NCBI GenBank assembly: GCA_017464345.1
Contig: JAFUAH010000016.1
Coordinates: 1-36,083, forward strand
Direction of reading: 5' to 3'
From: Bacteroidaceae bacterium
GTDB lineage: Bacteria; Bacteroidota; Bacteroidia; Bacteroidales; Bacteroidaceae
Length of the DNA: 36,083 nucleotides
Shown here: positions 4,027 to 36,083 of the stretch, piece by piece
Numbering within the stretch: the stretch's first letter is position 1
Layout of the letters: every line of letters starts with the position of its first letter
Translations under genes and position numbers: made by a program
The notes under the pieces: model-generated
The model's database searches: none
The model's input: the letters and a program-made list of their open reading frames with translations, nothing else
Told to the model about the DNA's origin: nothing

Positions 4027-4059
4027 TTTATGCGAATTTAATGGTGATATAAAACTAAA

Positions 4060-4088
4060 GGCACTCCGGGTATCCCTCCCGAAGTGCC
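4060..4088 (-). terminator. Hairpin between topB and the DUF1896 gene
   Basis: Read on the minus strand, GGCACTTCGGG and CCCGGAGTGCC pair over 11 positions (one G-U) around a 7-base loop, followed by TTTAGTTTTA. On the plus strand the same position would be a C-A mismatch, so the structure favours minus-strand RNA. It looks like a weak intrinsic terminator or attenuator inside the operon. Confidence 0.6.
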
Positions 4089-4168
4089 ACCACTAAATCC
4101 ACAATCAAAATGCGTATTCCAATAAAGAAAAACGGTCTATGACTGTGAACCAGTGGCAAAATTACAAA

Positions 4169-6253
4169 TTATTTACGAGACTTCGGACGTTTTGAGCCGT
4201 TTTTCGCTTCGGGGAACACAAAAACGGTGTTGAAGTCGCTGTCGAACACCACATTGGCGTCGAAACTCTTGCCCTGCTTGCTCTTGAAACCGCGCAATAC
4301 GCCCGTGGCTCCTGTCTGGATGAGCTTCGTCACTTCGGCATCGGTGAGCAGGCGCCCGGCCTTCTGCCGGAAGAGGGGCAGCCCGCAGTCGGGATTGTCA
4401 CAGCGGACGACCTTGCCCAGAAACTGCATGTGACCTGTCCCGCACTTGGGACAAAGACAGTCAGAGGACTTGTGGGCAAAGAGTTTGTCTGAGGACAGCA
4501 GTTCGGAGGTGATGCAGACGGTGTACTGTTCAATGCCGTGGTTGAACTCGTCAACAGCCATCTCACCATGCTCGATCTGTGCCAGGGACTTCTCCCATTC
4601 GCCCGTCATCGTCACGTCGGCAATGCTCATGTCCTTCACGACGGAGTAGAGGGCAAGCCCCTTCTCCGTAGGGACGAGTGACTTTTTCACACGCTCCACG
4701 TAGCCACGGGCAAAGAGCGTTTCAATAATGGAGGCACGGGTGGCAGGTGTGCCTATGCCACAGTCCTTGATGGCTTGTCTGAGCGTTTCATCCTCTATTT
4801 CCTTGCCGCAGGTCTCCATAGCCGCCAGCAGGGTTGCCTCGGTATGAAGGGGCTGTGGCTTGGTCTTTCCCTCGGTGATGGAGGCTCCAGAGATTTTCAG
4901 GCTTTCGCCCTCTTTCCAGTCCGGCAATACAGTGTCGGCATCATCGCCATAGACAAAGCGCCAGCCTTTTTGCTTCATGACGGAGCCGCGGACGGAGAAG
5001 TCCATATCCCCGGCAGTGGCAATCACGCTGGTGACTTCCTTGACACACTTTTCGGCAAACGCCTCAATCATGCGACCTACTATCATGTCATAGACAGTCA
5101 TCTCGTCCTTTGAAAGCAGGGCAGGCTTCTCACCCGTGATGAGCAGGGCGTGATGGTCGGTTACCTTCGAATCGTCCACACTGTGACGTGAGAGTGTGGA
5201 AAGCATCATCGCCTTTGTTCCCCATTTCTCGCTGCCTTGAAGGGTAAGCAGCAACGAGGGGATTTCCGCGAACACGTCTTCGGGAATATAGCTGCTGCCT
5301 GTTCTCGGATAGGTGATGATTTTCGACTCATAGAGTTTCTGCGCTATCTGGAGGGTCTGGTCTGCCGTGAACCCATGCTTGGCATTGGCTTCCTTCTGGA
5401 GCGAAGTCAGATCATAGAGCAAGGGCGGTTCCTCGGTCTTTTCCTTGCGTTCCACTTTGTCAACCGTGGCAGTCCTGGCGGCCTTCAATCGAGTATAGGC
5501 GGTATCGGCTTCAGCCTTGTCCTTCCACTTCTCAACGGATGACAGCTTTACGGTTCCGCCGTCTGCCATACCAGTGGCAAAGTGCAACTGCCAGAAGGCT
5601 TCAGGCGTAAAGCGCTTGTTCTTCCAGTAACGGTCACAGACCATTGCCAGCGTAGGTGTCTGCACACGCCCGAGGCTGTAGGTGCCGCGCCCTGCGGCAA
5701 TGGTGATGGCCTGTGTGGCATTGATGCCTACGAGCCAGTCGGCTTCACTGCGGGCCTTGGCGGCAAGGTAGAGGTTGTCGTACTTGCTGCCGTCTTCGAG
5801 GTTGCGCAAGCCCTCACGGATGGCCTTGTCGGTCAGTGAACTGATCCAGAGCCGCTTGAACGGTGTCGAGCATCCGATATAGTTATAGAGATAGCGGAAA
5901 ATCAGTTCTCCCTCACGTCCCGCATCGGTGGCGACAATGATATACTCGCTATCGGCAAACAGTTTTCCAATACAGCGTATCTGCGCTTCCACACCGGGGT
6001 CGGCGGCATAGCCTTTGCCACCCTTCGACTGCCGGGCCGTCAGTTGGAACACATCGGGCAGGATGGGCAGACTCTCCTTCTGGAAGCCCTTGAATCCGTA
6101 TGCTTCGGGCATGGCAAGCTGCACAAGGTGGCCAAAGGCCCATGTGACATAGTAGCCGTTACCTGTGATATAGCGCTCCTCACGCTGGGTTGCACCCACA
6201 ATGCGGGCTATCTCACGTGCCACGCTGGGCTTTTCTGCAATGATTGTCTTCAT
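4169..6253 (-). CDS. topB: DNA topoisomerase III (type IA), CTnDOT Exc-like
   Basis: The 694-aa protein is a complete type IA topoisomerase. The TOPRIM domain starts MKTIIAEKPSVAREI and carries DAGREGE at 110-116. The catalytic tyrosine is Y315 in IITYPRTGSSYIPE. A C-terminal zinc-ribbon-like segment near residues 597-625 has CLCPKCG and CDNPDCG. The enzyme passes single DNA strands through a transient 5'-phosphotyrosine break. In CTnDOT the equivalent gene is exc, the last gene of the excision operon, whose product has topoisomerase III activity. Here it follows the Orf3-like gene in the same order, supporting that assignment. The C-terminus is basic (KNGSKRPKSRK). Confidence 0.95.
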   Translation of the reverse strand: MKTIIAEKPSVAREIARIVGATQREERYITGNGYYVTWAFGHLVQLAMPEAYGFKGFQKESLPILPDVFQLTARQSKGGKGYAADPGVEAQIRCIGKLFADSEYIIVATDAGREGELIFRYLYNYIGCSTPFKRLWISSLTDKAIREGLRNLEDGSKYDNLYLAAKARSEADWLVGINATQAITIAAGRGTYSLGRVQTPTLAMVCDRYWKNKRFTPEAFWQLHFATGMADGGTVKLSSVEKWKDKAEADTAYTRLKAARTATVDKVERKEKTEEPPLLYDLTSLQKEANAKHGFTADQTLQIAQKLYESKIITYPRTGSSYIPEDVFAEIPSLLLTLQGSEKWGTKAMMLSTLSRHSVDDSKVTDHHALLITGEKPALLSKDEMTVYDMIVGRMIEAFAEKCVKEVTSVIATAGDMDFSVRGSVMKQKGWRFVYGDDADTVLPDWKEGESLKISGASITEGKTKPQPLHTEATLLAAMETCGKEIEDETLRQAIKDCGIGTPATRASIIETLFARGYVERVKKSLVPTEKGLALYSVVKDMSIADVTMTGEWEKSLAQIEHGEMAVDEFNHGIEQYTVCITSELLSSDKLFAHKSSDCLCPKCGTGHMQFLGKVVRCDNPDCGLPLFRQKAGRLLTDAEVTKLIQTGATGVLRGFKSKQGKSFDANVVFDSDFNTVFVFPEAKNGSKRPKSRK

Positions 6254-6321
6254 TTTCTTGATTGGGTTTTGATTTCAATTCGGATAATTGGATTTAGTGG
6301 TGGTACTTCTTGCTATATCCC

Positions 6322-7905
6322 TCAAAGTTTCGGGCCTCCTTTCTTCTGCTTCTTGGCGGGTTTCGTGTCTTCACCATTAGCCTGCTCCTGCTGTGCCTTC
6401 TGCTTTTCGTCCTTAGGCTTCACCTGTCCTTTCTGCAAAGGCTCCTTCACGCCCTTGGTCTCTTCGTTGGTCTTGCCTTCGTTGTTCACGGCTACCTGCG
6501 TCTTGCTCTCATTTGAGGGACCGAGCACCTTGCCGGGCTCTGGCGGAGTGGTGGAACTGTACGGACGGCCTTTCTCCTTGTTGAACTGCACGTATAGGGT
6601 GCAGGGCTGTCCTTCCTTGTCGGTCATGTTCTCTAACTTGATGACCTTGCCGTCCAGATAGTCCTGCTTCTGCTGGTCGTCAAACTCGCGACTCTTCCAT
6701 TTGGTGATTGGCTTGGGACTGCCGTCCTCCAGCGTCCAGTCGAGGCGTTTCTTCTTTTCTTCGCCGTCGGCTTTCTGCTGTCGGCTTTCCGATGCAGGGG
6801 CTTGTGTCTGTTCCTGTGTCTTTTCAAGGCTGCGGCTGGTGCCCGGGACGAACTCAATGCCTTTCTGGTCGGCATTGACCTGCAGGGTGACGGTGAACTT
6901 GCGGCCATTGGCAAGTTCAACTTCCTTGTTGGGAAGAGGCGCACCGGTCTTCAAGATGTCCTGCTCCTCCTTTGTTAAGGGCGTGGTGCCGATCTTGTCA
7001 CGGAGATGCAGCTTGCTGGCCGGGTAGGTCAGAATCTCGTTGGTCTTTCGGTCAATGCTGATATATGAGGGCACCATCTCGCCCGTTTCCAGATTTGCCA
7101 CTTCCGCAATATGTCCGAGGTTGCCTGTCGTACGCAGCGCCTTTTTGTCCTCATCCGTGAACGTGTAACCTCGGAACTCCACATTGAGGTTGGGCTCCAT
7201 ACGGATGAAGTGGGGTTTGATTGTGATGCTTCCGTCTTGCTGGGTCTTCAGGGAGAAGCGCATAGCCATGTCGTACTTCTCACCGTCGAAAGTCGGCTGT
7301 GCGGCAATGAGGTTGCTCTTGCCGTAGTTCAGCATCCTGTCAAGGTCGCCCGACTTCTGGAGTGCTTCGCGTGAGATACCCCACTTCTTTTCCATGTCCG
7401 GCCAGTTGATTTTGCTCTCGTCAAGCGGCTGATAGCCGTTGCGACGTCCTTCTGCCTGCGTCTGGGCAGGCTGTTCCTGTTTCTGTTCCATTTCTTTTTC
7501 CTGTTTTTGATTGTTAATGTTTTCGGGCTCCTGCCCGTTCTTTTCCTGTTGCACCTTCTTCTCGTACTCCGACGTGTCAATCTTGTGGGCGGCAAGGACC
7601 TCCTTGTTGGCTTCGGGATCTTTCAGAAGGTCTTTCATCACGTCGAGCAGCGCATCCACCTTGTCGGCTGCCAGACGGTAGAACCCGAAGCGTGACGGCT
7701 CCTTGTACTGGCGGAAGAAGTTGGTGAAGAAGTTGTCGAGTACGTCGCCGCCACGGTCAAAGTGGAGGAAGTCGGGCGAGTTCTCCAACTTGGCGGGCTT
7801 GGTTTTCGGTGTGCCGTCCCGTGAAAGGCTGGACACCACGCTGATTTCACCCGTCTGTTCATCGCGGACTATCAGCACGTCCTTTTCGTCTTTTTTCTTG
7901 TTCAT
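6322..7905 (-). CDS. DUF3945/DUF4099-like ICE protein (CTnDOT Orf3-like)
   Basis: This 527-aa hydrophilic protein has an N-terminal segment (residues 1-110, LHFDRGGDVLDNFFTNFFRQ) typical of DUF4099 proteins, a Q/E/K-rich linker (about 115-160) and a central DUF3945-like region (about 165-350) with GYTFTDEDKKAL and GEMVPSYISIDRKTNE. A second segment around 395-460 repeats the DUF3945 style (GKVIKLENMTDKEGQPCTLY). The tail is lysine-rich. No enzyme motif is seen. These proteins sit just upstream of topB in CTnDOT-type excision operons and may aid DNA processing, but the activity is unknown. The start ATG lies 7 bases after the stop of the upstream HTH gene. Confidence 0.85.
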   Translation of the reverse strand: MNKKKDEKDVLIVRDEQTGEISVVSSLSRDGTPKTKPAKLENSPDFLHFDRGGDVLDNFFTNFFRQYKEPSRFGFYRLAADKVDALLDVMKDLLKDPEANKEVLAAHKIDTSEYEKKVQQEKNGQEPENINNQKQEKEMEQKQEQPAQTQAEGRRNGYQPLDESKINWPDMEKKWGISREALQKSGDLDRMLNYGKSNLIAAQPTFDGEKYDMAMRFSLKTQQDGSITIKPHFIRMEPNLNVEFRGYTFTDEDKKALRTTGNLGHIAEVANLETGEMVPSYISIDRKTNEILTYPASKLHLRDKIGTTPLTKEEQDILKTGAPLPNKEVELANGRKFTVTLQVNADQKGIEFVPGTSRSLEKTQEQTQAPASESRQQKADGEEKKKRLDWTLEDGSPKPITKWKSREFDDQQKQDYLDGKVIKLENMTDKEGQPCTLYVQFNKEKGRPYSSTTPPEPGKVLGPSNESKTQVAVNNEGKTNEETKGVKEPLQKGQVKPKDEKQKAQQEQANGEDTKPAKKQKKGGPKL

Positions 7906-7912
7906 GTTTTAA

Positions 7913-8278
7913 TTATTTATTTGGTTTGACAATTCTGGCGAAATATTCGCCGATTTCATTCTCTGATATACCGGGTACCTGACGGCGGAGGAAACGGCTG
8001 ATGTCTGACTCCTTGAAGTAGGCTTTCTTGCGCAGTTGGACGTAGGGGAGCACACCGAGCAGACGGTAGCGCTGGATAGTGCGCTTGCTGACATGGAGCA
8101 TCAGGCAGAGGTCTTCGGTGTCGTAAAGCCGTTCACCGTCGAGCGTGGGGCCGATGCCGCTGCCTGCCGTTTCCCTGCCTTCGAGCAGACGGGCAATCAG
8201 TTCGTCCTGCGCATCGAGACGGCGGAACATCTGCTGCATGGCATTGATGAAGGTCTGACGGTCAAGTGTCTCATTCAT
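7913..8278 (-). CDS. Helix-turn-helix excision/regulatory protein (Xis2d-like)
   Basis: About 121 aa. It contains a MerR/excisionase-type winged helix (DTEDLCLMLHVSKRTIQRYRLLGVLPY... YFKESDISRFL), the fold of DNA-bending recombination directionality factors. Its place, second in a minus operon before an Orf3-like gene and topB, equals that of xis2d in CTnDOT, whose product is needed for excision and also influences transfer gene transcription. The start at 8278 (MNETLDRQTF) is chosen because GGAGGA lies 7 bases upstream; an in-frame ATG at 8293 is possible. The gene begins just after the stop of the upstream HTH gene. Confidence 0.85.
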   Translation of the reverse strand: MNETLDRQTFINAMQQMFRRLDAQDELIARLLEGRETAGSGIGPTLDGERLYDTEDLCLMLHVSKRTIQRYRLLGVLPYVQLRKKAYFKESDISRFLRRQVPGISENEIGEYFARIVKPNK

Positions 8279-8294
8279 GCTCGTATCCTCCATC

Positions 8295-8645
8295 TTATTC
8301 CGTTTTCCTGTTATTGCCCGTCCGCACACGGTAGGTATGACTGATCTGGTCGAGGGTGTGCTGTTCAGTCGGCACTTGGTTGGACTCAATGACACGGCGG
8401 ATTTCCGCGAGTCTGTAGCGACAGGAATTTCCGACAAGCGAGTAGGCTATGTCATTGCGGGAGCGCATACGCTGGAGCGTGCGCTGGCTGACGCCAAGGA
8501 TTTCGGCGGCCTCAGTACTTGACACCCACCTGTCGGTTTGTTCATGCGGATGCCGGACAGAACTCTGGCGGATAAATGCCTCAATGATGTCCAAACGCTC
8601 CATCAAGTTCTGGTATGCCTTGCTCTCAATGGTTATAACTTCCAT
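8295..8645 (-). CDS. Helix-turn-helix excision/regulatory protein (Xis2c-like)
   Basis: About 116 aa. The N-terminus MEVITIESKAYQNLMERLD is a short coiled segment typical of this ICE family. A MerR-like HTH follows (WVSSTEAAEILGVSQRTLQRMRSRNDIAYSLVGNSCRYRLAEIRRVIE). It is the first gene of the minus operon and corresponds by position and type to Xis2c of CTnDOT, an excision factor. A longer form starting at 8666 (seven more residues) is possible; the shorter start is preferred from the family N-terminus. A candidate promoter lies at 8676-8683. Confidence 0.85.
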   Translation of the reverse strand: MEVITIESKAYQNLMERLDIIEAFIRQSSVRHPHEQTDRWVSSTEAAEILGVSQRTLQRMRSRNDIAYSLVGNSCRYRLAEIRRVIESNQVPTEQHTLDQISHTYRVRTGNNRKTE

Positions 8646-8849
8646 ATTTTTTGCTGCTTTATTCATTTACGGGTGCAAAGGTCGGAGGAAAAAACGACTT
8701 CGGTTCCCAACTCCCGCGGGACTCCCGTGAGATTTTTGTGGATAATGTCGCAAGTGTCGCGTTTTTGGGCGACAAATCGCGTCACGGCATGGTTTTTCAG
8801 TCGGTAACGGGCGTAAAGTGTGTACTTTCGCGGAAAAAACGAAAGTGAC
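8646..8849. promoter_or_regulatory. Divergent control region of the ICE excision genes
   Basis: This 204-bp gap separates divergent HTH gene pairs. For the minus operon the -7-like element GACCTTTG lies at 8676-8683. For the plus genes TACTTTCG lies at 8823-8830, one base off TAnnTTTG. Between them are short inverted repeats, including TGTCGC/GCGACA around a spacer near 8755-8775. Such elements could be operators for the flanking HTH proteins; no binding site is proven. Confidence 0.5.
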
Positions 8850-9131
8850 ATGGAAATCGTGATACTGGAACGTGAGGCGTTCGATGCCTTGATAAACGGA
8901 ATACAGGTGCTGACGGCAAAGGTCGGTTGCCTGTCGGAGATGTGCCAGGACAAGGGACTCGGCAAGTGGATTGACAATGAGACGGTTTGCAGGATGCTGA
9001 GGATAAGCCCCCGTACCTTGCAATATATGCGCGACACGAGGAGCATCCCGTTCACGCAGATAAACCGAAAGTTCTACTACAGGCCGGAGGACATACGCCC
9101 CCTGCTGAATGAAGAGGGAAAGGAGGCGTGA
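8850..9131 (+). CDS. Helix-turn-helix ICE protein, divergent pair gene 1
   Basis: About 93 aa, starting MEIVILEREAFDALINGIQ, the same style of N-terminus as the minus-strand Xis2c-like gene. The HTH is NETVCRMLRISPRTLQYMRDTRSIPFTQINRKFYYRPEDIRPLL. The family is excisionase/MerR-like, and the likely role is DNA binding in excision control or transcription. It is divergent from the excision operon and followed after three bases by a second HTH gene, as with the orf2a/2b genes near the CTnDOT integrase. An upstream in-frame ATG at 8820 overlaps the candidate promoter, so 8850 is preferred. Confidence 0.8.
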   Translation: MEIVILEREAFDALINGIQVLTAKVGCLSEMCQDKGLGKWIDNETVCRMLRISPRTLQYMRDTRSIPFTQINRKFYYRPEDIRPLLNEEGKEA

Positions 9132-9134
9132 GGG

Positions 9135-9428
9135 ATGGCAGAGAAGATTTACACGATGAACGACGCGGTGATAGCCGATGCGCTGTCGTCGATGAGGAAA
9201 GCGATGCGCAGGGCTTCGGCAATGATGCAGGAGTGCCGCCCCGTGATGGACGGGGAACGGTATGTGACGGACAAGGAACTGTCGGAGGTGCTGAAGGTGA
9301 CGCGACGCACGTTGCAGCAGTATCGCAACGACGGCATCATTCCGTACATCACGATGGGCGGCAAGGTGCTCTACAGGGAGTCGGATGTGAAGGCATTGCT
9401 TGAAAGAAACTACGTGCCAGCGATGTGA
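9135..9428 (+). CDS. Helix-turn-helix ICE protein, divergent pair gene 2
   Basis: 97 aa. The HTH segment is YVTDKELSEVLKVTRRTLQQYRNDGIIPYITMGGKVLYRESDVKALL, again excisionase/MerR-like. AGGG just before the ATG can act as a ribosome binding site, and the gene starts three bases after its partner. The four HTH proteins of this region share the fold but differ in sequence, suggesting old duplications. A strong hairpin follows at 9435-9474. The exact role in excision or regulation is inferred from position only. Confidence 0.8.
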   Translation: MAEKIYTMNDAVIADALSSMRKAMRRASAMMQECRPVMDGERYVTDKELSEVLKVTRRTLQQYRNDGIIPYITMGGKVLYRESDVKALLERNYVPAM

Positions 9429-9434
9429 AACGGG

Positions 9435-9474
9435 AAAGGCGGAGGTCAGGACATTGTGCCTGACTTCCGCCTTT
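9435..9474 (+). terminator. Intrinsic terminator after the plus-strand HTH pair
   Basis: AAAGGCGGAGGTCAGG pairs with CCTGACTTCCGCCTTT (16 positions, one G-U in plus-strand RNA) around an 8-base loop, with TTTT at its end. It lies between convergent genes (the HTH gene ends at 9428, the RhuM-like gene at 9479) and may work less well in the other direction. Confidence 0.8.
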
Positions 9475-9478
9475 TGTC

Positions 9479-9850
9479 CTACGATGAGCAGAAGGAACTC
9501 CTGCCGAGCGTCAGAATGTAGGAGATGCCGCCGCCCGCAGGCTTGTCGGTGAGCCTCGTCAGCAGCCACTTGCGGAACAGGTCCGTATAGCAGGTGTCTA
9601 TCCTGAAACTCACGGCGACAATCATTTCGAGGCTGTACACGTCGATGCTGACGACGGGACTCACGCGGTCGGTGCGCACGGCATCGCGCTCTTTCAGCAG
9701 TCCCGAGCGCAGCACACCCTTGATGGCGGTGTTGACGGCGGTGGCCGTGGTGTTGAAGATTTCGGCTATCTCGCCAGCCGTCATCCATACATTGTTTCCT
9801 GTCACGGAGAACGTCTTGCCCTCCACTTTGATGATGTTTCTCGTTGTCAT
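9479..9850 (-). CDS. RhuM-like small protein next to the integrase
   Basis: About 123 aa from MTTRNIIKVEGK. The segment VWMTAGEIAEIFNTTATAVNTAIKGVL resembles the N-terminal DNA-binding-like part of RhuM proteins, and DVYSLEMIVAVSFRIDTCYTDLFRKWL matches the RhuM pattern of YSLDMI-ILAIGFRV followed by a QFR-W helix. It lacks the C-terminal half of full RhuM proteins. The longer reading that begins at 9901 overlaps the integrase end and is less likely. It lies downstream of the integrase on the same strand. The function is unknown; a DNA-binding accessory role is a guess from the fold. Confidence 0.7.
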   Translation of the reverse strand: MTTRNIIKVEGKTFSVTGNNVWMTAGEIAEIFNTTATAVNTAIKGVLRSGLLKERDAVRTDRVSPVVSIDVYSLEMIVAVSFRIDTCYTDLFRKWLLTRLTDKPAGGGISYILTLGRSSFCSS

Positions 9851-9878
9851 AGTCGTTACTGTTTTCGTTACCTTATTA

Positions 9879-11111
9879 TTATATACTGCTGCAGATGGCA
9901 CTCTGCATCGTCCCCAGCTTCTCGGACAGGCGCTCCACGTCGCGGCTGATCTTCTCGCCCGTAATCTTGGCGTAAATCTGCGTCGTGCGGATGCTCTTGT
10001 GACCCAGCATCTTCGATACGGTCTCGATGGGCACGTCGTTGGAGAGGCAGATGGTCGTGGCGTAGGTGTGGCGGCTCATGTGCCAGGTCACGTTCTTGTC
10101 GATGCCGCTCAGCGCAGCCACCCGCTTCAATGCCGCGCGGCAGGTGTTGTAGTCGGCCACGGGCAGTATGCGTCCGTCCTTGCCCAGCCCCTTGTACTTC
10201 TCAATGATGTGCAGGGGTACGTCCAGCAGGCGGATGTCGCTCTCCACGCCGGTCTTCTGTCGCTTGGTCTTTATCCACAGGTGACCGTCGAAGGCAGTCT
10301 GTAGGTGCTGCTCCGTGAGGTTGCGCATGTCAATCCATGTCAGCCCCGTGAAGCAGCAGAACACGAACAGGTCGCGGATGACCTCGTAGCTTTTCCTCTT
10401 GAACGTCGTCGCAATCATCTTCTCAATGTCCTCGCGGGTGAGGAAGCCACGCTCCGTGTCCTCCTTCGTGATGCTGTAGGCATAGAACGGGTCGCGCTGC
10501 AGCCAGCCGTTGTTGATGGCCGTGTAGATGATGGCCTTGAAGGGCATCATGTACGTCCAGATGGTGTTGGTGCAGAGGCCCTTCTCCGTGCGCAGGAAAA
10601 TTTCGAAATCGGTGATGAAGGCGGGAGCCAGTTCCTTCAGCGCGATGTCGCTGACCTTGTAGCGCTGGCGGATGAACTCTTCCAGATGCTTATACACGAT
10701 GCCGTATTTCAGATAGCTCCGCTCGCTCTTCATCTTGCCCACCTGTTTCAGATAGTCCTCGTTGTGCTGACGGAACACGGCCAGCAGTGTCTTGTGCGTC
10801 ATGCCCATGCCGAGATATACGTTGCGCACCTTCTCGGCAGTCACATAACTGTCGTTGTCCACGACCTCCTGATAAGCCTTGTTGATGCCCACGCGGATTT
10901 TGTCGAGCGCACGGTTACCCTCCACGGCGGCCTGACTGCGCCCGGCAAGTCTGCCCAATTCCACGCTCCACATTTTTTCCTCCACGTCCAGCTTGCAACT
11001 GAACTGGCACACCTTCCCGTTCACCGTAATACGGCACATCACTGGAATCAGTCCGTTCTTTTTCGGCGCATTGCGCTTGAGGTAGAACAGCACCTTGAAA
11101 GTTGATCTCAT
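9879..11111 (-). CDS. IntDOT-like tyrosine recombinase (ICE integrase)
   Basis: 410 aa, against 411 for IntDOT. It has an N-terminal arm-binding domain (1-100), a SAM-like core-binding domain (about 105-205) and a catalytic domain (about 220-410). Visible active-site residues are R284 and K286 (TKRQKT), H344 and R347 (HMSRH), H371 (LGHKS) and nucleophile Y380 (TTQIYAK). The usual first arginine is absent: the motif reads TGLTWIDMRNL with T258 at that place. IntDOT also lacks this arginine (serine there) and still recombines. It integrates and, with Xis factors, excises the element. Transcription likely starts from TAATTTTG at 11133-11140. Confidence 0.95.
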   Translation of the reverse strand: MRSTFKVLFYLKRNAPKKNGLIPVMCRITVNGKVCQFSCKLDVEEKMWSVELGRLAGRSQAAVEGNRALDKIRVGINKAYQEVVDNDSYVTAEKVRNVYLGMGMTHKTLLAVFRQHNEDYLKQVGKMKSERSYLKYGIVYKHLEEFIRQRYKVSDIALKELAPAFITDFEIFLRTEKGLCTNTIWTYMMPFKAIIYTAINNGWLQRDPFYAYSITKEDTERGFLTREDIEKMIATTFKRKSYEVIRDLFVFCCFTGLTWIDMRNLTEQHLQTAFDGHLWIKTKRQKTGVESDIRLLDVPLHIIEKYKGLGKDGRILPVADYNTCRAALKRVAALSGIDKNVTWHMSRHTYATTICLSNDVPIETVSKMLGHKSIRTTQIYAKITGEKISRDVERLSEKLGTMQSAICSSI

Positions 11112-14708: not shown

Positions 14709-16357
14709 ATGAAGAAAAGACTTTTTATTTTATTCTTGGGAGTATTAACTTTCAACTTTCAACTTTCAACTCTGCTCTTGCCTGCACGAACCTGATAGTC
14801 GGCAAGAAAGCATCGGCCGATGGCAGCGTGATTGTAACCTATTCGAGCGACGACTACGGGGCTTACGGTTTCCTCTTCTACCAGAAGGGCGGCAAGCACC
14901 AGCCGGGCGAGATGCGCAAACTCTATCACTACGAGTCGAACAACTATCTGGGTGAAATCCCCGAAGCCGATTCCACCTTTGCCGTTATCGGCCTGACCAA
15001 CGAACACCAGGTGACCATCCACGAAACCACGTGGGGCGGTCGCGAGGAACTGGCCGACTCGACCGGCCTCTTCGACTATGGAAGCCTGATGCAGGTGACC
15101 CTCCAGCGTGCACGCACGGCTCGCGAGGCCCTGAAGATAATGACCGACCTCGTGGCTCAGTACGGCTACCAGAGCGAGGGCGAGTCGTTCACCATTGCCG
15201 ACCCCAACGAGGTGTGGGTGATGGACATGATAGGCAAGGGCCCCGGCGGCGGCGCTCCCGTTTGGGCGGCCGTGCGCATCCCCGACGACTGCATCTCTGG
15301 CCATGCCAACCAAAGCCGCATCCACCAGTTCCCCCTCAAGGACAAGGAGAACTGCATCTACTCGAAGGATGTCATCACGTTTGCCAAGAAGAAGGGTTAC
15401 TTCTCGGGCAAGGATAAGGACTTCTCCTTTGCCGATGCCTACAATCCCCTGGACTTCGGCGGCGCGCGCTATTGCGAGGCTCGCGTGTGGAGTTTCTTCA
15501 ACAAGTGGGGCAGTGAGGACATGTCGAAGTACCTCAAGTATGCCATGGGCGAAGACCTCAATGCCGAACCGTTCCCCCTCTACATGAAGCCCAAGAAACT
15601 GCTCTCGGTGCAGGACGTGAAGGACATGATGCGCGACCACTACGAAGGCACGCCGATGGAGATTCAGAGCGACCTTGGCATGGGCCCGTGGGAGATGCCT
15701 TACCGCCCCACGCCGCTGACGTGGGAGGTCGACGGCAAGAAGTATTTCAACGAACGCCCCATCTCCACCCAGCAGGCCAGTTGCATCTACGTGGCGCAGA
15801 TGCGTTCGTGGTTGCCCGACTACGTGGGCGGTGTGCTGTGGTTCGGCAACGACGATGCCAACATGGTGGCCATGGTGCCCATCTACTGCTGCACTGTGGA
15901 TGCCCCCGAGTGCTTCAACGAGCGGACGGGCGACACGTTCACCTTCTCCTTCAAGAGTGCCTACTGGATGCAAAACTGGGTGGCCAACATGGTCTATCTG
16001 CGCTATTCGTTGCTCTTCCCCGAACTGGCGAAGGTGCGCGACGGCTTGGAGAGCGAATTTAATCGTCTGCAGCCGGAAGTGGAGAAGAATGCCCTCTCGA
16101 TGACTGAGGCTGAGGCTCGCAAGTACCTCTCGAACTACAGTTATATGCAGAGCGCGAAGATGATGGACGCGTGGATGAATCTCGCCCAGCACATTGTCGT
16201 TCGCTACAACGATATGGCCCAGAAGAAGATGGACGAGAACGGCCAGTGGCTGAAGACCCCCGGCGGCAATCAGGTTCCCGTCAGTCGTCCGGGCTATCCC
16301 GAACGCTACAGAAAGGCGATTGTGAAAGAAACAGGAGATAAATACCTTATTAAATAA
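14709..16357 (+). CDS. Secreted C69-family dipeptidase, frame broken by a 7-bp repeat
   Basis: The body (from about 14771) is a peptidase family C69 dipeptidase: CTNLIVGKKASADGSVIV, with the mature N-terminal Cys as nucleophile, then GLTNEHQVTIHETTW and NEVWVMDMIGKG. The ATG at 14709 opens a signal peptide (MKKRLFILFLGVL...), but three copies of ACTTTCA at 14748-14768 put the two halves in different frames, and the upstream frame stops after 28 codons. With one copy the peptide would read ...GVLTFNSALA before Cys21; with four copies an intact 551-aa protein also results. As written the product is off. Alternatively translation could start internally at GTG 14828, but that would lose the catalytic Cys and the export signal. 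Confidence 0.85.
14748..14771 (+). repeat. ACTTTCA heptamer, three copies plus ACT, in a signal peptide
   Basis: Copies lie at 14748, 14755 and 14762, with a partial unit at 14769. The unit length is not a multiple of three, so each copy shifts the frame. The same heptamer recurs on the coding strand of uvrA at the right edge of the window. Confidence 0.9.
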
Positions 16358-22295: not shown

Positions 22296-23198
22296 ATGAT
22301 GAAAAGAGTATCGATACTGATAGTTTTCTTAGTAGCCCTGCTACCTGTGCTGGCGCAGACGGACGAGGCGGTATTGCAGTCCATAAAGGACGACATCCAG
22401 GCCGTGAAGGCACGGACGCGCGAGACGAAGAGCCTGCTGCGCGACCAGGAGCGCGAACTGCGGAAACTGACGGCGGAACTGGAGCGCACACGAGCCACCA
22501 TACAGCAGAATAAGCAACGGGCTCGCGATGCCAAGAAGAGCGGAAAGTCGTTTACTCCGAAACCCGTGGAGCGCACCTACACCAGCGTGTATGCCCATCC
22601 GGAAACACCAGATGCCGGAGCAAAGCCTGCAACTGACGCAAAGTCTGCCGCACCAACTGCAAGACCTGCAAAGTCTGGCAAACCCGCAAAGTCTGACAGC
22701 AAGACTGCAAGCAAGAAGAAAGAGAAGACAATGCAACAAACTCCGAAGCAGGAAGAGAAGACAAAGGACACAGAGAGCGCAGAGAACACAGGGGGGGCAG
22801 AGAAGAAGACTGAAAAGGTGCCTGAGCAGAAAGCCGTTCCCGGGGCAACCGGCTCCAACCGCCGTATCAGCGACAAGGAGGCCCTGCGCCAACAGAAGCA
22901 GCGTAATAAGTATTACGAAGACCGCCTGAAGGAGAAGCAGAAGGCGGCCAAGGAAACCGAAAAACAAGCGGCCAAGGAGGCAGCCCAGGCCCAGAAGGAG
23001 AAGGAAAAGGCGGAGAAAGAGGCTGCCAAGGCTCGCAAGAAGATGGAGAAGGAAAAGAAAAAGTCCGAACCTCCAGTGGCCTCTGCCCGTCGCCAGCGTG
23101 ATACCAAAAGCACAGAGGACGCAGAGAAGTCTGACCAGTCCGACAGGTCTGACAGGTCCGACAAGCCAAAGCCCACAGAGAAGAAAGGCAATGACTGA
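22296..23198 (+). CDS. Secreted K/E/A-rich coiled-coil protein, unknown function
   Basis: 300 aa. It has a signal peptide (MMKRVSILIVFLVALLPVLA, then QTDE). A coiled coil spans about residues 24-75 (ERELRKLTAELERTRATIQQ), then a low-complexity A/K/S/P region, then a second long K/E/A helix (about 200-270). The tail SDQSDRSDRSDK is encoded by a 9-bp repeat. The family is not recognised; such proteins are often envelope-associated. It is first in a tight operon with nudC, a four-helix protein and an UshA-like phosphatase. Simple-sequence content is high (a G7 run near 22791 and CACAGAG/GCAGAG repeats), so frame stability may vary between strains. Confidence 0.75.
   Translation: MMKRVSILIVFLVALLPVLAQTDEAVLQSIKDDIQAVKARTRETKSLLRDQERELRKLTAELERTRATIQQNKQRARDAKKSGKSFTPKPVERTYTSVYAHPETPDAGAKPATDAKSAAPTARPAKSGKPAKSDSKTASKKKEKTMQQTPKQEEKTKDTESAENTGGAEKKTEKVPEQKAVPGATGSNRRISDKEALRQQKQRNKYYEDRLKEKQKAAKETEKQAAKEAAQAQKEKEKAEKEAAKARKKMEKEKKKSEPPVASARRQRDTKSTEDAEKSDQSDRSDRSDKPKPTEKKGND
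23129..23164 (+). repeat. 9-bp repeat GTCyGACmr, four copies, end of gene 1 of the operon
   Basis: Units start at 23129, 23138, 23147 and 23156. In frame they encode SDQ/SDR/SDR/SDK near the C-terminus of the coiled-coil protein. Confidence 0.85.
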
Positions 23199-24039
23199 TT
23201 TGTACTTTGCATATTGTCAGGGCGACGTGCTACTCACGAAAGGGGAGCAGGGCGTGACGATACCTTCGGGCGACAGGCCTCCCATAGAGTTCCAACCGTG
23301 GGAACAGGTGACAACAGTTCACAGTTCACAGTTTACAGTTCACAGTTATAGGTGTCACATCTATCGCCTCGACCGTCCCGTCACGGGCCGCGACGACTTG
23401 CAGATGATGGGACTCAGGAAGTCGTACGACGTACTGCCTGCCGACCTCTATCAGTTGGCCGGGAAGTGCGCCGAGTTGGTCTATTGGGACCAGAACTCTA
23501 AGTTCTGTGGTTGCTGCGGTGCCCCGATGCGGTGGGACACGGACATCTCGAAGCGATGCACCGAGTGCGGCAAGGAACTGTGGCCACAACTCCAGACGGC
23601 AATCATCGTTAGGGTGACGCGGGGCGAGGAAGTCCTCCTCGTCCATGCCCATAACTTCCGGGGCACGTTCTACGGACTGGTGGCGGGCTTCGTGGAGACG
23701 GGCGAGACGCTGGAGGAGTGTGTCTGCCGCGAAGTGTGGGAAGAAACGCACATCCGAATAAAGAACATCCGCTACTTCGCCTCCCAGCCGTGGCCCTATC
23801 CCGCAGGGTTGATGGTGGGCTTCACGGCCGAATACGAGAGTGGCGAACTGCAACTCCAACGTTCCGAACTGGCGGGTGGGGGGTGGTTCCGACGCGACAA
23901 CCTGCCCGAGATACCAGGGCCTGTAAGCCTTGCCCGGCGGCTCCTGGACGACTGGTTGAGGACTTCGTCTGACAAGTCCGACTTGTCAGACCTGTCCGAC
24001 TTGTCAGACGAAACAACAACTAAAACAAAAGAACTATGA
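23191..24039 (+). CDS. nudC: NADH pyrophosphatase / NAD-cap hydrolase
   Basis: 282 aa from MTDLYFAYCQGDVLL; the ATG overlaps the previous stop. A zinc ribbon uses C106, C109, C123 and C126. The Nudix box runs 166-188 (GFVETGETLEECVCREVWEE), with His187 where Gly is usual. SQPWPYP (198-204) is the signature of NudC enzymes, which hydrolyse NAD(H) and NAD caps on RNA. Residues 42-53 (TVHSSQFTVHSY) come from four copies of AGTTCAC, which add 21 bases over a single copy and keep the frame. The C-terminal SDKSDLSDLSDLSDE is from a 9-bp repeat. Confidence 0.95.
   Translation: MTDLYFAYCQGDVLLTKGEQGVTIPSGDRPPIEFQPWEQVTTVHSSQFTVHSYRCHIYRLDRPVTGRDDLQMMGLRKSYDVLPADLYQLAGKCAELVYWDQNSKFCGCCGAPMRWDTDISKRCTECGKELWPQLQTAIIVRVTRGEEVLLVHAHNFRGTFYGLVAGFVETGETLEECVCREVWEETHIRIKNIRYFASQPWPYPAGLMVGFTAEYESGELQLQRSELAGGGWFRRDNLPEIPGPVSLARRLLDDWLRTSSDKSDLSDLSDLSDETTTKTKEL
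23316..23343 (+). repeat. AGTTCAC heptamer, four copies, inside nudC
   Basis: Copies lie at 23316, 23323, 23330 (AGTTTAC) and 23337. With a single copy the peptide would read VTTVHSYRCHIYRL; the three extra units add seven residues without shifting the frame. Confidence 0.9.
23967..24011 (+). repeat. 9-bp repeat GTCnGACnn, five copies, end of nudC
   Basis: Units start at 23967, 23976, 23985, 23994 and 24003. The first units form a perfect hairpin (GTCTGACAAG with CTTGTCAGAC around TCCGA). Confidence 0.85.
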
Positions 24040-24632
24040 CACAGGCTCAGGGATTCCTGCCACTGCGGGGAGGCTACCGAAAACTCCGCGTCTACCGGGT
24101 GACGGAAATCGTCTATGATCTCACATACTATTTCGCCCATCGCTACCTTGTCAAGGGCGACCGCACGATAGACCAGATGGTGCAGGCGGCGCGGAGTGGC
24201 AAGCAGAATATAGCCGAAGGAAGCAAGGCCTCGATGACTTCGCGGGAGACGGAAATCAAACTGACAAATGTGGCAAAAGCCAGTCTGGAAGAACTACTGG
24301 TGGACTATGAGGACTATCTTCGAGTACATGGTTTGGCGCAATGGGGCGAAGATCATCCCCGATATTCGCGCATGAGAAAGTTTGCCCAAAGTAACGACCT
24401 ACAGCGGAAGTATGACGAGTTGAAGGAGAAACTTAGCGACGAAGAATTGTCCAACCTGTGCATAACCTTGATAAACCAGGCCACCTACATGTTGCGGCGA
24501 CTGATCGCCCGTCAGGAAGAGCAGTTCCTGCAAGAGGGCGGCATCCGCGAGCAGATGACCAAGGCTCGTCTGGAGTATCGTCGGATAGGTCCGACCAGTC
24601 CGACAGGTCTGACTAGTCAGACAAAACAATAA
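24036..24632 (+). CDS. Four-helix-bundle suffix-domain protein (S23/IVS-like)
   Basis: 198 aa. The core TEIVYDLTYYFAHRYLVKGDRTIDQMVQAARSGKQNIAEGSK and TEIKLTNVAKASLEELLVDYEDYLR match the four-helix-bundle proteins related to the S23 family, first seen in 23S rRNA intervening sequences. No catalytic role is known. Here it is a chromosomal operon member: its ATG overlaps the nudC stop as ATGA and the next gene starts six bases after its end. The C-terminal tail GPTSPTGLTSQTKQ is encoded by a 9-bp repeat read in a different frame from the other two copies. Confidence 0.85.
   Translation: MTQAQGFLPLRGGYRKLRVYRVTEIVYDLTYYFAHRYLVKGDRTIDQMVQAARSGKQNIAEGSKASMTSRETEIKLTNVAKASLEELLVDYEDYLRVHGLAQWGEDHPRYSRMRKFAQSNDLQRKYDELKEKLSDEELSNLCITLINQATYMLRRLIARQEEQFLQEGGIREQMTKARLEYRRIGPTSPTGLTSQTKQ
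24589..24624 (+). repeat. 9-bp repeat GTCnGACnn, four copies, end of the four-helix gene
   Basis: Units start at 24589, 24598, 24607 and 24616. GTCTGACTAGTCAGAC (24607-24622) is a perfect palindrome. Confidence 0.85.
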
Positions 24633-24637
24633 CTACT

Positions 24638-26497
24638 ATGAAAAGCCTACTTTTAGCAATGCTGTTAATGACAAGCCTGCCTCTTTCGGCCAAGCCGAAG
24701 GAGATGCATCTCAAGTGGATACATACGAGCGACGTACACGGGTCGCTGTTCGGCTACGACTACCTGCGCAAGCGTGAGGTGAGCGGTGGGCTTTCGGCCA
24801 TTTATGCCTATACGCAGGAACAGCGACGGCAGTTTGGCGACCGCCTTATCCTGACCGACGGTGGCGACTGCCTGCAGGGGCAGCCCACGGCTTACTACTA
24901 TAACTTTGTCGATACCCTCTCGCCGCACCTCGTGGCTGAGGCCATGAACATGATGGACTACGACTGCGGAGCCATGGGCAATCACGACATTGAGACGGGA
25001 CATGCCGTCTACGACCGCTGGGTCAGACAGTGCCATTTTCCGGTGCTCGGAGCCAATGTCATAGACACCTGGACAGGTAAGCCCTATCTGCAACCCTACC
25101 ATGTCATTGAGCGCTCAGACGTGAAGATTGTCGTCCTCGGAATGCTCACTCCCGGCATCCCCAATTGGCTGCCCGAACAGCTGTGGGCAGGCCTGCGCTT
25201 TGAGGAAATGGTCCGTTCCGCCCGCAAGTGGGTGAAAATCATTCAAGAGCGTGAGCAACCCGACCTGCTCGTCGGTCTCTTCCACAGTGGTTACGACGGT
25301 GGTATTGTGAACATCGGCGAGGACGGCGTGAGTGAGATTCACGAGAATGCAACCAAACTCGTGGCCGAACAGGTGGAGGGCTTCGACCTCATCTGCTATG
25401 GGCACGACCACCAGCCAGCCGTCAACCGTCTGAAGAATCCCCGTGGCGAGGAGGTCGTGGTGATGGGCCCCACCAGCCAGGGGCGTCGCATTGCCGAGGC
25501 TGACATCTATCTCACACTCGACAAGAAGGGCAGGGTAGCGGGTAAGCGCATTGAGGCGAGCACGCCATTTGTAAGTGGTGAGAAGAGAGAAGTGAGAAGT
25601 GAGAAGAGAAATGTATTAGATAATCAAGAAGCAGAACAAACCTCTTCTCACCTCTCACTTCTCACTTCTCACCAAGCCCCCCCCTCCACTCTCCACCAAT
25701 TCGAAGAGAACTTTTCCTCCCAGCGCCAGACGCTGAAGGAATGGGTCGACCAGCCCATCGGCACGCTGACCAAGCCCCTCTACGAGCGTGATGCCTTCTT
25801 CGGCCCGTCGGAGTTTATCGACCTCATCCATCAGATGCAGCTCGACCTGACGGGAGCCGACGTTTCGTTTGCCGCTCCCTTGTCCTTCGACTCTCGACTG
25901 CAGGCCGGCACCATCCGCGTCAGCGACATGTTTGCCCTCTACAAATATGAGAACTTCCTCTACACCATGCGCATGACGGGTCGCGAAATCAAAGGCTTCC
26001 TGGAGATGTCCTACGGCCTGTGGACCAACCAGATGACGGGCCCCGACGACCACATCATGCTCCTCGACAGCATCCTCGATAATGGTCGTCGGCAGGGCCT
26101 CAAGAACCTGTCCTACAACATGGACTCGGCCGCAGGCATCCTCTATGTGGTAGATGTGTCCAAGCCCGAGGGCGAGCGCATTGTCATCGAGTCGATGGCC
26201 GACGGCACACCCTTCGACCTCGACCGCGAGTACAAGGTGGCCATCAACAGTTATCGGGGCAACGGCGGCGGGGAACTTATCACGCGTGGGGCCGGCATTC
26301 CGCACGAGGAACTGAAAAGCCGCATCCTTGCGAGCACCGAACAAGACCTGCGCTTCTATCTCATGCAGCGCATCATCCAGCAGAAGACCATCACCCCAAA
26401 GAAACTCAATCACTGGCACTTTGTGCCCGAAGAGTGGGCTCCGGCCGCCATTGAGCGAGACCGCAAGATACTCTTCCCAAACAGCCGTTGGCAGTAG
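24638..26497 (+). CDS. Secreted UshA/CpdB-like 5'-nucleotidase / metallophosphatase
   Basis: 619 aa. It has a signal peptide (MKSLLLAMLLMTSLPLSA), then a calcineurin-like domain with metal ligands SDVHGS (D32, H34), DGGDCLQG (D74 region), GNHDIE (N115, H116, D117), LVGLFHSGYDGG and CYGHDHQP. The C-terminal 5'-nucleotidase domain includes DVSFAAPLSFDSRL and YKVAINSYRGNGGGE for substrate binding. It probably frees phosphate or nucleosides from extracellular nucleotides or cyclic nucleotides in the periplasm. Between the domains (about residues 314-350) is an in-frame insertion made of 7-bp repeats in inverted orientation (KREVRSEKRNVLD... SSHLSLLTSH). Last gene of the four-gene operon. Confidence 0.92.
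   Translation: MKSLLLAMLLMTSLPLSAKPKEMHLKWIHTSDVHGSLFGYDYLRKREVSGGLSAIYAYTQEQRRQFGDRLILTDGGDCLQGQPTAYYYNFVDTLSPHLVAEAMNMMDYDCGAMGNHDIETGHAVYDRWVRQCHFPVLGANVIDTWTGKPYLQPYHVIERSDVKIVVLGMLTPGIPNWLPEQLWAGLRFEEMVRSARKWVKIIQEREQPDLLVGLFHSGYDGGIVNIGEDGVSEIHENATKLVAEQVEGFDLICYGHDHQPAVNRLKNPRGEEVVVMGPTSQGRRIAEADIYLTLDKKGRVAGKRIEASTPFVSGEKREVRSEKRNVLDNQEAEQTSSHLSLLTSHQAPPSTLHQFEENFSSQRQTLKEWVDQPIGTLTKPLYERDAFFGPSEFIDLIHQMQLDLTGADVSFAAPLSFDSRLQAGTIRVSDMFALYKYENFLYTMRMTGREIKGFLEMSYGLWTNQMTGPDDHIMLLDSILDNGRRQGLKNLSYNMDSAAGILYVVDVSKPEGERIVIESMADGTPFDLDREYKVAINSYRGNGGGELITRGAGIPHEELKSRILASTEQDLRFYLMQRIIQQKTITPKKLNHWHFVPEEWAPAAIERDRKILFPNSRWQ
25578..25672. repeat. Heptamer inverted repeat inserted in the phosphatase gene
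   Basis: The left arm 25578-25608 (units AGAAGTG) and the right arm 25642-25672 (units CACTTCT) are 31 bases each and complementary at 29 positions, around a 33-base loop. The whole stretch is read through in frame. Confidence 0.9.
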
Positions 26498-27806: not shown

Positions 27807-27818
27807 TGGGGTGAATAA

Positions 27819-27842
27819 TTAAGAATTAAGAGTTAAGAATTG
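27819..27842 (+). repeat. TTAAGAA heptamer tract running into the nspC start codon
   Basis: TTAAGAA, TTAAGAG and TTAAGAA at 27819-27839; the TTG start codon of nspC (27840-27842) begins the next degenerate unit. Confidence 0.75.
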
Positions 27843-29047
27843 GAAATAAAAACACCATATTATCTGGTAGAGGAGAGGTTGCTCAGACGCAACCTCTCGC
27901 TCATTCGCGATGTGGCGGAGAAGAGTGGGGCAGAGGTGATACTGGCCTTCAAGGCCTTTGCGCTGTGGCGGACGTTCCCCATCTTCCGCGAGTACATCAG
28001 CCACACCACGGCCAGCAGTCCCTACGAGGCGCGGCTGGCCATGGAAGAGTTTGGCAGTCCGGCGCATACCTACAGCCCGGCATACACGGAGGAGGACATG
28101 CCCACCATCCTGCGCTGTAGCAGCCATGTCACGTTCAATAGTCTCAGCCAGTTGCGCCGCTTCCGTCCGATGGTGGAGGACTACAATCGCGAACATCCCG
28201 AGAAACCCGTTTCCTGTGGGCTGCGCGTGAATCCCGAATACAGCGAGATAGAGACCGAACTCTACAACCCTTGTGCCCCTGGCTCGCGCTTCGGTGTCCT
28301 CGCCGGCGACATTAATTCTTCACTCTTCACTCCATTCCCGACCGATGGTCGCCTACCCATAGCCTTTCACTCTTCACTTCCCATTGAGGGCTTCCATTGT
28401 CACAACCATTGCGAGAGCTCGGCAGAGGCGCTCCAACGCAGTCTGCAGCATCTGGAGGAGAAGTTCGGCCAGTGGTTGCCCAGGCTGAAGTGGCTGAACC
28501 TGGGCGGTGGCCATCTGATGACGCGCCAGGACTATAATGTCCCCCTGCTGATACAACTTATCCAGGATCTGCGCCGCCGCTATCCCAATCTCCGCATCAT
28601 ACTGGAGCCCGGCTCCGCCTTTGCCTGGCAGACGGGCCCCCTCGTATCCTCCGTGGTAGATATTGTGGAGAACCACGGCATACGCACTGCCATCCTCGAT
28701 GTCTCCTTCACCTGCCACATGCCCGACTGTCTGGAGATGCCCTATCAGCCCGTGGTACGCGGAGCGCAGATAGTAGAGGATTCGGAAAGTCACCTCTCAC
28801 CTCTCACCTCTACAGGTTGGGTGGCAACAGCTGTCTCTCGGGGGACGTCATGGGCACGTGGGACTTCGACCACGACCTGCAGGTGGGGGAGAAGGTCATC
28901 TTCGAGGATATGATACACTACACCACGGTGAAGACCACCATGTTCAACGGTATCCACCATCCGAGCATCGTCCTTCGCCACTGCGACGGCAGCATCGAGC
29001 TCCTCCGACAGTTCCGTTACGAAGACTATCGCGACCGAATGTGCTAA
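27840..29047 (+). CDS. nspC: Carboxynorspermidine decarboxylase, frame broken by a 7-bp repeat
   Basis: PLP-dependent fold III decarboxylase of polyamine synthesis. Landmarks are EVILAFKAFALW with lysine K38 for PLP, CGLRVNPEYSE, GFHCHNHCES, LNLGGGH, ILEPGSAFAW and, in another frame, LGGNSCLSGDVMG, FEDMIHYTTVKTTMFNG and FRYEDYRDRM. The first frame runs from TTG 27840 to 28913; the true C-terminus is in a shifted frame to 29047. The break is at TCACCTC x3 (28790-28810). One or four copies would restore a protein of about 400 aa that reads ESHLYRLGGNSC or longer. As written the conserved active-site cysteine region is lost. A second heptamer-bearing insertion lies at 28318-28378. The only upstream start is TTG. 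Confidence 0.88.
28318..28378 (+). repeat. Paired CTTCACT heptamers inside nspC
   Basis: CTTCACT occurs twice at 28318-28331 and as TTTCACT-CTTCACT at 28365-28378. They bracket residues between GSRFGV and EGFHCHNHC, a spacing that looks about 15 residues longer than I expect for the family. The frame is kept. Confidence 0.7.
28790..28812 (+). repeat. TCACCTC heptamer, three copies, at the nspC frameshift
   Basis: Copies lie at 28790, 28797 and 28804, followed by TACAGG. The downstream coding frame differs by +2 from the upstream frame, which one extra unit or two fewer units would correct. Confidence 0.92.
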
Positions 29048-34970: not shown

Positions 34971-36083
34971 TTATTCTCTCTGCTTTTCTTTCAGTTTTTC
35001 TTTCAGGAACTGTCCCGTATAGCTCTCGGCGCATGTGGCTATGGTCTCGGGCGTGCCCTGTGCCACAAGGTTGCCGCCGCGGTTGCCACCCTCGGGCCCC
35101 AGGTCGATGACGTGGTCTGCCATCTTGATGACGTCCAGGTTGTGCTCGATGATGACGATGGTGTGGCCTTTGGCAATCAGCGCATCGAAGGCGGCCAGCA
35201 GTTTCTTGATGTCGTGGAAGTGCAAGCCCGTGGTGGGCTCGTCGAAGATGAAGAGCGTCGGCTCGTGTTTCTCCTGCCCCAGGTAGTAGGCCAGTTTCAC
35301 GCGCTGGTTCTCGCCGCCCGACAGGGTGGAGGAGGATTGGCCGAGCTTGATGTATCCCAGACCAACGTCCTGCAGGGGCTTCAGCCGACTGACGATGCGC
35401 TGTTGCTTGTGCTCGCCGAAGAACTCGATGGCCTGGTTCACCGTCATGTCCAGTATGTCGCAGACGTCCTTGTCGTGGAACTTCACTTCCAGCAGTTCCT
35501 TCTTGAAGCGCTTCCCGTGGCACGACTCGCACTCCAGCACCAGGTCGGCCATGAACTGCATCTCCACGGTCACGGTGCCCTCGCCCTTGCACTCCTCGCA
35601 TCGGCCGCCCTCGGTGTTGAAACTGAAGTAGCCTGGCGTATAGCCCATCTGTTTGGCCAGTGGCTGTTCGGCGAAGAGGCGGCGTATCTCGTCCCAGCCC
35701 TTCACGTAGGTGACGGGATTGGAGCGCGTAGATTTGCCGATGGGGTTCTGATCGACGAAGTCGATGTGGCGCACCTGCTTCATGTCGCCCTCCAGCGCCA
35801 GGTGTTCGCCCGGTCGGTCGGCTGGCTCGTCGAAGTATCGCTTCATGGCCAGGTAGAGGATGTCGCGTACGAGGGTCGATTTGCCGCTTCCGCTGACACC
35901 CGTCACGCAGGTCATTACGTTCAGTGGGAACTTCACATCGATGCCCTTCAGGTTGTTGGCGCGAGCGCCCTTCACCTCTATGAAGTTGTTCCAAGGCCGG
36001 CGGCTCGACGGCACGGGCAGCGTGTCCTGGCCCGAGAGGAAGCGAAGGGTGTAACTTTGAGTTGAAAGTTGAAAGTTGAAAGT
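34971..36083 (-). CDS. uvrA: UvrA excinuclease ABC subunit A, C-terminal part (5' end outside window)
   Basis: About 370 residues of the C-terminal half are visible. They include the second ABC domain with Walker A GVSGSGKST, a zinc finger (CEECKGEG ... CESCHGKR), signature LSGGENQR and Walker B LFIFDEPTTGLHFHD. UvrA finds bulky DNA damage and loads UvrB in nucleotide excision repair. The coding frame is open to the window edge, where the residues TFNFQLSTQ are encoded by ACTTTCA repeats just before SYTLRFLSGQ, the linker ahead of this ABC domain. Confidence 0.96.
   Translation of the reverse strand, partial: TFNFQLSTQSYTLRFLSGQDTLPVPSSRRPWNNFIEVKGARANNLKGIDVKFPLNVMTCVTGVSGSGKSTLVRDILYLAMKRYFDEPADRPGEHLALEGDMKQVRHIDFVDQNPIGKSTRSNPVTYVKGWDEIRRLFAEQPLAKQMGYTPGYFSFNTEGGRCEECKGEGTVTVEMQFMADLVLECESCHGKRFKKELLEVKFHDKDVCDILDMTVNQAIEFFGEHKQQRIVSRLKPLQDVGLGYIKLGQSSSTLSGGENQRVKLAYYLGQEKHEPTLFIFDEPTTGLHFHDIKKLLAAFDALIAKGHTIVIIEHNLDVIKMADHVIDLGPEGGNRGGNLVAQGTPETIATCAESYTGQFLKEKLKEKQRE
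36063..36083 (-). repeat. ACTTTCA heptamer, at least three copies, in the uvrA linker
   Basis: On the coding (minus) strand three full ACTTTCA units reach the window edge; more may lie beyond. It is the same heptamer as in the C69 gene at 14748. Confidence 0.85.

Follow-up and report, generated by a model that had tools for sequence, protein, structure and literature searches.

Why should a conserved gene of polyamine synthesis be divided between two reading frames exactly at three copies of a 7-bp repeat, and is such a division a switch, the start of decay, or a fault of the assembly? The question is raised by nspC, which encodes a carboxynorspermidine/carboxyspermidine decarboxylase (the full family name of TIGR01047), in a 36,083-bp stretch of DNA from a Bacteroidaceae bacterium. 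This whole stretch, called the window here, is contig C4 of a 1.9-Mb genome that is assembled in 37 contigs and is 61% complete. The nearest named matches of the gene are in genomes of uncultured Prevotellaceae and Bacteroidales, with several further ones in genomes named for the gut or rumen of ruminants, and the host bacterium is probably from the gut or rumen.

The 5' part of nspC is read in frame A (27840-28789, +) and matched PDB 36gy_A with 448 bits; the translation of 27840-28796 matched positions 1-291 of the 380-position TIGR01047 profile with 377.5 bits. The 3' part (28811-29047, +), which runs from YRLGGNSC to YEDYRDRMC and the stop codon, lies two bases on (frame A+2), matched profile positions 304-379 with 111.2 bits, aligned to residues 302-378 of 36gy_A, and is translated without an internal stop. 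Neither piece alone reached the TIGR01047 cut-off of 409.05 bits, which applies to the whole protein in one frame. Between the pieces are three exact tandem copies of TCACCTC (28790-28810, +), reported by TRF with period 7, 3.1 copies and 100% match and forming a pure array of 22 bp, which parts the first ~290 residues from the conserved last 78. The TRF result and the TIGR01047 matches thus confirm the earlier note's claim that a single nspC gene is split at three TCACCTC copies with its 3' part in the +2 frame. In frame A, translation continues from the array to a stop as a wrong-frame tail (28811-28913, +), so that the predicted product of the open reading frame 27840-28913 has 357 amino acids, the wrong tail included. 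The locus is a simple sequence repeat whose unit is not divisible by three, placed inside nspC and flanked by different frames; the array itself reads S-P-L-T-S-H-L in all three frames. An array of AATTAAG/GAGTTAA type (27814-27841, +) lies in the interval after the preceding gene and runs into the first codon of nspC.

Alignment with relatives defined two loops, loop 1 between RFG and GFHCH and loop 2 between CLEMPY and YRLGGNSC, both of which would lie on the protein surface. Both hold arrays in the window. Loop 1 (28296-28388, +) is 93 nt long and in frame, with TTCACTC-type arrays (28312-28332 and about 28365-28379) that flank a short core; it is 45 nt in most relatives read. Loop 2 (28746-28810, +), which holds the TCACCTC array, is 65 nt long (mod 3 = 2) and out of frame, its length being a multiple of three in the other genus genes read. 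Readable genus sequence was obtained for loop 1 in 71 genes and for loop 2 in 66, with 15 loci, 5 of these from outside the genus, lacking one or both loops; in this set only loop 2 of the window had a length that is not a multiple of three. Searching the loops at lag 7 identified arrays in 13 genus nspC genes, 12 of them in frame, a proportion with P = 1.7e-5 if length were random modulo three, and the same search gave 2 genes at lag 8 and none at lags 4-6 and 9-11. The heptamer occupying the same loops changes with the species: TCACCCC in G016, TTTTCAA and TCTCACC in G131, TTTCAAC in G144, GTCAATC in G132, and GGAGCAA and ATGGTAA in G156. In this comparison of nspC across relatives, which the earlier note had named as a check on its proposed switch, the window alone is frame-broken at a loop array. 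The core between the loop 1 arrays of the window (28332-28365) resembles the core between the loop 2 arrays of G155 (L220), as if one element had landed in both.

Over 139 genomes of the genus, nspC scored above the cut-off in one frame in 115; the other 24 had no nspC match (11), weak matches only (8) or partial ones (5). The partial genes are those of the genome under study (G000, with the break described above), G123, G018, G117 and G136. The gene in G123 is split by a frame change where no array was seen, and those in G018, G117 and G136 were rejected as frame breaks because contig ends cut the gene. In G117 (end of L224) and G018 (start of L049), the contig stops at nspC loop 2 beside CCCTCCCT-type palindromes, and repeats at this site may break the assemblies of both genomes. 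The genomes compared comprise one per species, and the best DNA match among the 61 searched was 78% identical.

A chance repeat was excluded by the excess of period 7 over other periods and over a Markov copy. A 436-kb sample of this genome contained 26 exact arrays of period 7 (match run of 12 or more) and 0-5 at each other period between 3 and 15, apart from period 14, twice seven, with 16; one first-order Markov copy had none at any tested period. Frame was then scored from codon use over 1,588,475 bases from seven genomes holding 231 heptamer arrays. This scoring placed 34 arrays in frame inside genes, 3 at shifts and 4 at edges, and left 190 in a class, not all of it read, of intergenic arrays and arrays that the strict test could not place (including those of the peptidase C69 gene described below and of nspC loop 1). 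The same scoring of 21,000 random positions gave 12,019 in frame and 27 shifts, which makes an odds ratio of 39 for shifts at arrays (p = 1e-4), arrays within one gene not being independent; more than half of the random shifts (14, unread) are from G016. Apparent shifts with an ATG close by were left out of the count (42 random positions and 1 array). The three strict shifts are confined to two of the seven genomes, where 3 arrays were shifted and 17 in frame, as against 16 shifted and 3,668 in-frame random positions. At periods 5, 8, 10, 11 and 13 there was at most one in-frame array each, without any shift; tested periods divisible by three gave 20-49 in-frame arrays each and no shift, and shifted arrays at the 11 other periods numbered 0; seven is the only tested unit length not divisible by three that had more than one in-frame array inside genes in these 1.59 Mb. 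The idea that frame breaks gather at heptamer arrays was borne out by the odds ratio and by two more breaks in the relative G016. Three of the five 'frame differs' cases (L149 4819, L149 15699 and L152 4601) were rejected as array-linked breaks because they lie between genes, and L150 8101 because an ATG follows.

Such arrays occur across the genus and, in most genes that allowed a judgement, keep the frame. They are dense in some genomes, G156 having 51 in 120 kb, G139 60 in 260 kb, G000 54 in 436 kb and G016 47 in 400 kb, and sparse in others, G003 having 4 in 118 kb and G008 5 in 99 kb. The pure runs of the 34 in-frame arrays span 13-33 bp. Inverted pairs within 120 bp take up 20 of the 54 arrays of the window's own genome (10 pairs) and 0 of the 47 in 400 kb of G016. 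Three tandem copies of TCACCTC occur in 17 of the 139 genus genomes, and a reversed control pattern was counted at 28 places, spread over 6 of these 139 genomes; since the reversed pattern also forms arrays, TCACCTC is one heptamer among many. Among the matches listed for TCACCTC there are at least 27 distinct arrays (47 overlapping places): 3 of these are shifted, 9 were read as keeping a single open frame, and the remainder are between genes or unassigned.

We consider it probable, at roughly 0.7, that nspC contains one member of a heptamer repeat family carried in tolerated loops, and that slippage recently put the gene out of frame. The frame break in nspC is genuine and tied to an array that belongs to a widespread family of heptamer repeats. 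In this species, as in others of its genus, a dispersed family of 7-bp tandem arrays occupies intergenic sites as well as loops, linkers and signal peptides, where arrays with lengths divisible by three are translated as repeating heptapeptides, and one such array fills the variable nspC loop before the GGNSC motif. Slippage, most likely from four copies in frame by the loss of one, would have left the three copies at which translation now departs from the nspC frame and forfeits the last 78 residues, including the part predicted to complete the active site of the partner subunit; further slippage may reverse the break. The direction is suggested by the lengths of loop 2, which is 69 nt in G016, G001, G025 and G020, 63 nt in G131 and G144, and 72 nt in G132, with a range of 39 to 282 nt in other genus genes. 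As the seven relatives (63-72 nt) are nearer to the 72 nt of four copies than to the 51 nt of one, loss of one copy appears likelier than gain of two, a leaning and not a proof, and the state of two extra copies ('+14') that the earlier note gave to this array looks the less likely. Counting against this explanation is that one genome stands behind the break, so that a rare variant or a consensus error is possible. Our estimate overlaps with those for a switch and for decay below, because these two are possible sequels of the slippage.

The frame break would entail loss of enzyme activity. In CASDC, the beta-barrel domain gives residues including Cys306 to the active site of the partner, and there are two variable regions, one of them the alpha9/beta12 loop, as stated in the structural passages of PMC11866407. 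The GGNSC motif of the window would be the Cys306 equivalent, and loop 2 appears to correspond to the alpha9/beta12 variable loop. Both window parts match CASDC/NspC (PDB 36gy, 9eaf, 3n29) in sequence, with the difference that the frame in the window is broken before the motif taken as the Cys306 equivalent. The same passages make spermidine more likely than norspermidine, which the earlier note had named, as the product of NspC (PMC11866407).

If copy number at the nspC array changed frequently and reversibly, the array would be a contingency locus that switches spermidine synthesis, a possibility put forward in the earlier note and about which we are doubtful. The unit is not divisible by three, nspC is off in this assembly, and its 3' part has kept clear of internal stops. 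Three other genes share this frame state, each at an array of similar type. The first is the peptidase C69 gene of the window (14709-16357, +; PF03577, 291.5 bits over 14828-16357), in which the ATG is out of frame with the mature part: from the ATG at 14709 to the mature Cys codon at 14783 there are 74 nt (mod 3 = 2). An AACTTTC-type array lies in its signal peptide (14743-14774, +), the same place in G001 and G019 being taken by in-frame arrays of different units (TTTTCAA, TGTTCAA). The mature frame before the Cys codon contains no ATG and, by eye, no GTG or TTG, and among the 27 N-termini read from 30 loci (3 unread), 26 have an in-frame ATG and that of the window does not. The earlier note's observation that a gene 14 kb away shares the frame state of nspC is upheld, its reading of the nspC state as +14 being the part that became less likely. 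The other two genes are in G016, where TCACCTC x3 divides a GH127 gene, whose domains fall in two frames, and a double ABC ATPase. The GH127 ortholog in G156 is unbroken, and both ATPase halves are read in a single open frame in 7 other genomes among the 41 searched. In nspC, GH127, the ABC ATPase and C69, the 3' part is always in the +2 frame, a common sense that is weak evidence (chance 1 in 8).

The case for frequent switching is opposed by the small number of copies at nspC, three being short for a hypermutable locus, by the in-frame state of 12 of the 13 genus arrays in nspC loops, and by arrays in the housekeeping genes alaS, radA, mfd, mnmE and folC, where switching makes little sense. 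The hmw repeats of H. influenzae act from upstream of the adhesin gene. The nspC array differs from those of hmw1A in that it lies inside a metabolic gene, would act by frame, and has three copies only. The likeness to such 7-bp contingency loci is that a tandem unit is tied to a gene and its copy number can alter expression, as described for hmw1A in passages of PMC8262952. Should slippage at these heptamer arrays be common, frame switching would not be confined to surface antigens but would extend to the core metabolism of bacteria of the gut and rumen, the supply of polyamines included.

It is also unlikely that nspC is a young pseudogene in a lineage that is losing the pathway, with the break permanent. 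A speA match was absent from this 61%-complete bin, with matches above the cut-off in 55 of 61 genus genomes (this one counted); two PF03435 matches in it are, judging by their first residues, presumably TrkA-like and short-chain-dehydrogenase-like rather than carboxyspermidine dehydrogenase; and G072, the closest genome at alaS (97% over part of it), has a weak nspC match only. These absences of polyamine partners tell little, however, because the bin is 61% and G072 80% complete. The substitution rates point both ways. Between the window and seven relatives, dN ranged over 0.090-0.110 in the 5' part and 0.121-0.194 in the 3' part, compared with 0.103-0.115 and 0.094-0.126 in four pairs of relatives; between the window and G016, the dN/dS ratio of the 3' part (0.22) exceeded that of the 5' part (0.07), dS being saturated in many pairs. 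The excess of dN in the 3' part, which favors a pseudogene, could mean recent relaxation, but both parts still appear to be under constraint. Since the 3' part still looks constrained, the break looks recent, and an old pseudogene was rejected on the same ground.

More speculative, and decidedly unlikely, is that 7-bp arrays in the genus are generated, spread and replaced at recurrent protein sites by a sequence-independent process, a small share of the array-bearing genes, nspC included, being out of frame at any time and able to return by slippage. As seven is not divisible by three, every such array is a potential frame switch, and if the proposal is true, dozens of frame switches lie in ordinary metabolic and housekeeping genes. 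Among the observations that favor the preferred explanation, a repeat family with slippage at nspC, different heptamers occupy one site in different species in the nspC loops, the C69 signal peptide, GH127, FolC and the ABC linker; the FolC genes of G016 and G139 have in-frame arrays of different units at the same site. In-frame TCACCTC arrays occur in RadA, Mfd and MnmE (the last cut by a contig start) of various species, as well as in a QueG-like gene below the cut-off, a CobJ/precorrin-8X fusion and a precorrin-6A reductase/CbiD fusion. The genome of the window has further in-frame arrays in alaS, purM, pdxB, purB (a cut piece), a MATE transporter and a beta-galactosidase-like gene. Within the window, an ACAGTTC-type array is in frame in an NAD(+) diphosphatase gene (23312-23348, +), and an inverted pair (25578-25611 and 25644-25674, together 25578-25674, +) is in frame in a 5'-nucleotidase/phosphodiesterase-like gene.

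An assembly or sequencing artefact, with the true nspC in frame, is improbable: the assembly is a single draft, and an AGTTGAA array at the very end of the window suggests that arrays may interfere with assembly, but the 22-bp array at nspC has unique flanks and is shorter than ordinary reads and assembly k-mers, and G016, another assembly, shows the same type of break twice. Recoding, in which ribosomes shift by -1 or skip the array to make full-length NspC, is very hard to credit, since although all four breaks would need the same net shift, the 34 in-frame arrays require none and no X XXY YYZ slippery site was seen by eye at the nspC array.

The preferred reading, a repeat family that occupies tolerated loops and slipped at nspC, finds partial parallels among known repeats. 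Passages of two papers describe 7-bp direct repeats that are distributed genome-wide and in many cases intergenic, TAACTGA in Beggiatoaceae, cyanobacteria and some Bacteroidetes, with genic copies mainly towards protein ends (PMC4679880), and GGGAATC in Xanthomonas, with related repeats in Nostoc (PMC4692102). The nspC unit is neither of these, and the present family differs in that the unit varies by species at one gene site and stands in frame inside core enzymes. The palindromic elements of Rickettsia are similar in being small in-frame repeats in unrelated metabolic genes, but they are about 150 bp long with conserved peptides, according to passages of PMC10969869, whereas the units here are 7-bp tandem repeats. 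The 10 inverted array pairs of the sampled genome, some of them in frame, add to the likeness. In-frame insertion into housekeeping genes, as with the Rickettsia elements, was seen for other arrays (the 34 in frame); nspC loop 2 is itself shifted, a single array without an inverted partner and hence not a palindromic unit. No report of in-frame heptamer arrays in Prevotella-type genomes was found in titles and the beginnings of abstracts of the open literature searched, for broad queries among the top matches listed. In 2015, 7-bp repeats were described in a passage of PMC4692102 as over-represented in many bacteria and without a detailed literature; their origin and spread are now open to direct comparison. 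Even without switching, the family is unusual in having different sequences at the same sites in different species.

The alaS loop carries inserts that differ between species (28 of 30 loci aligned). In the genome of the window, the alaS insert (L161:4518-4627) is an in-frame segment of ~33 amino acids in which two heptamer arrays, inverted relative to each other, flank a short core. Similar elements are present in pdxB and elsewhere in the same genome, in G072 (97% identical) and in G017; most of the 116 bp of the insert was matched in these three genomes, and the other matches listed mostly covered one array. A second repeat family in the window has period 9 (GTCCGACAA and GTCAGACTT types; 23127-23165, 23976-24009 and 24587-24624) and lies near or within the ends of neighbouring genes, where it keeps the frame because nine is a multiple of three. 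The AGTTGAA array that ends the window occupies 36060-36083, and at the opposite end, 1-11111 carries what we take to be genes of an integrative-type element, namely a large helicase/methylase-type protein, a topoisomerase, excisionase-like proteins and a tyrosine recombinase.
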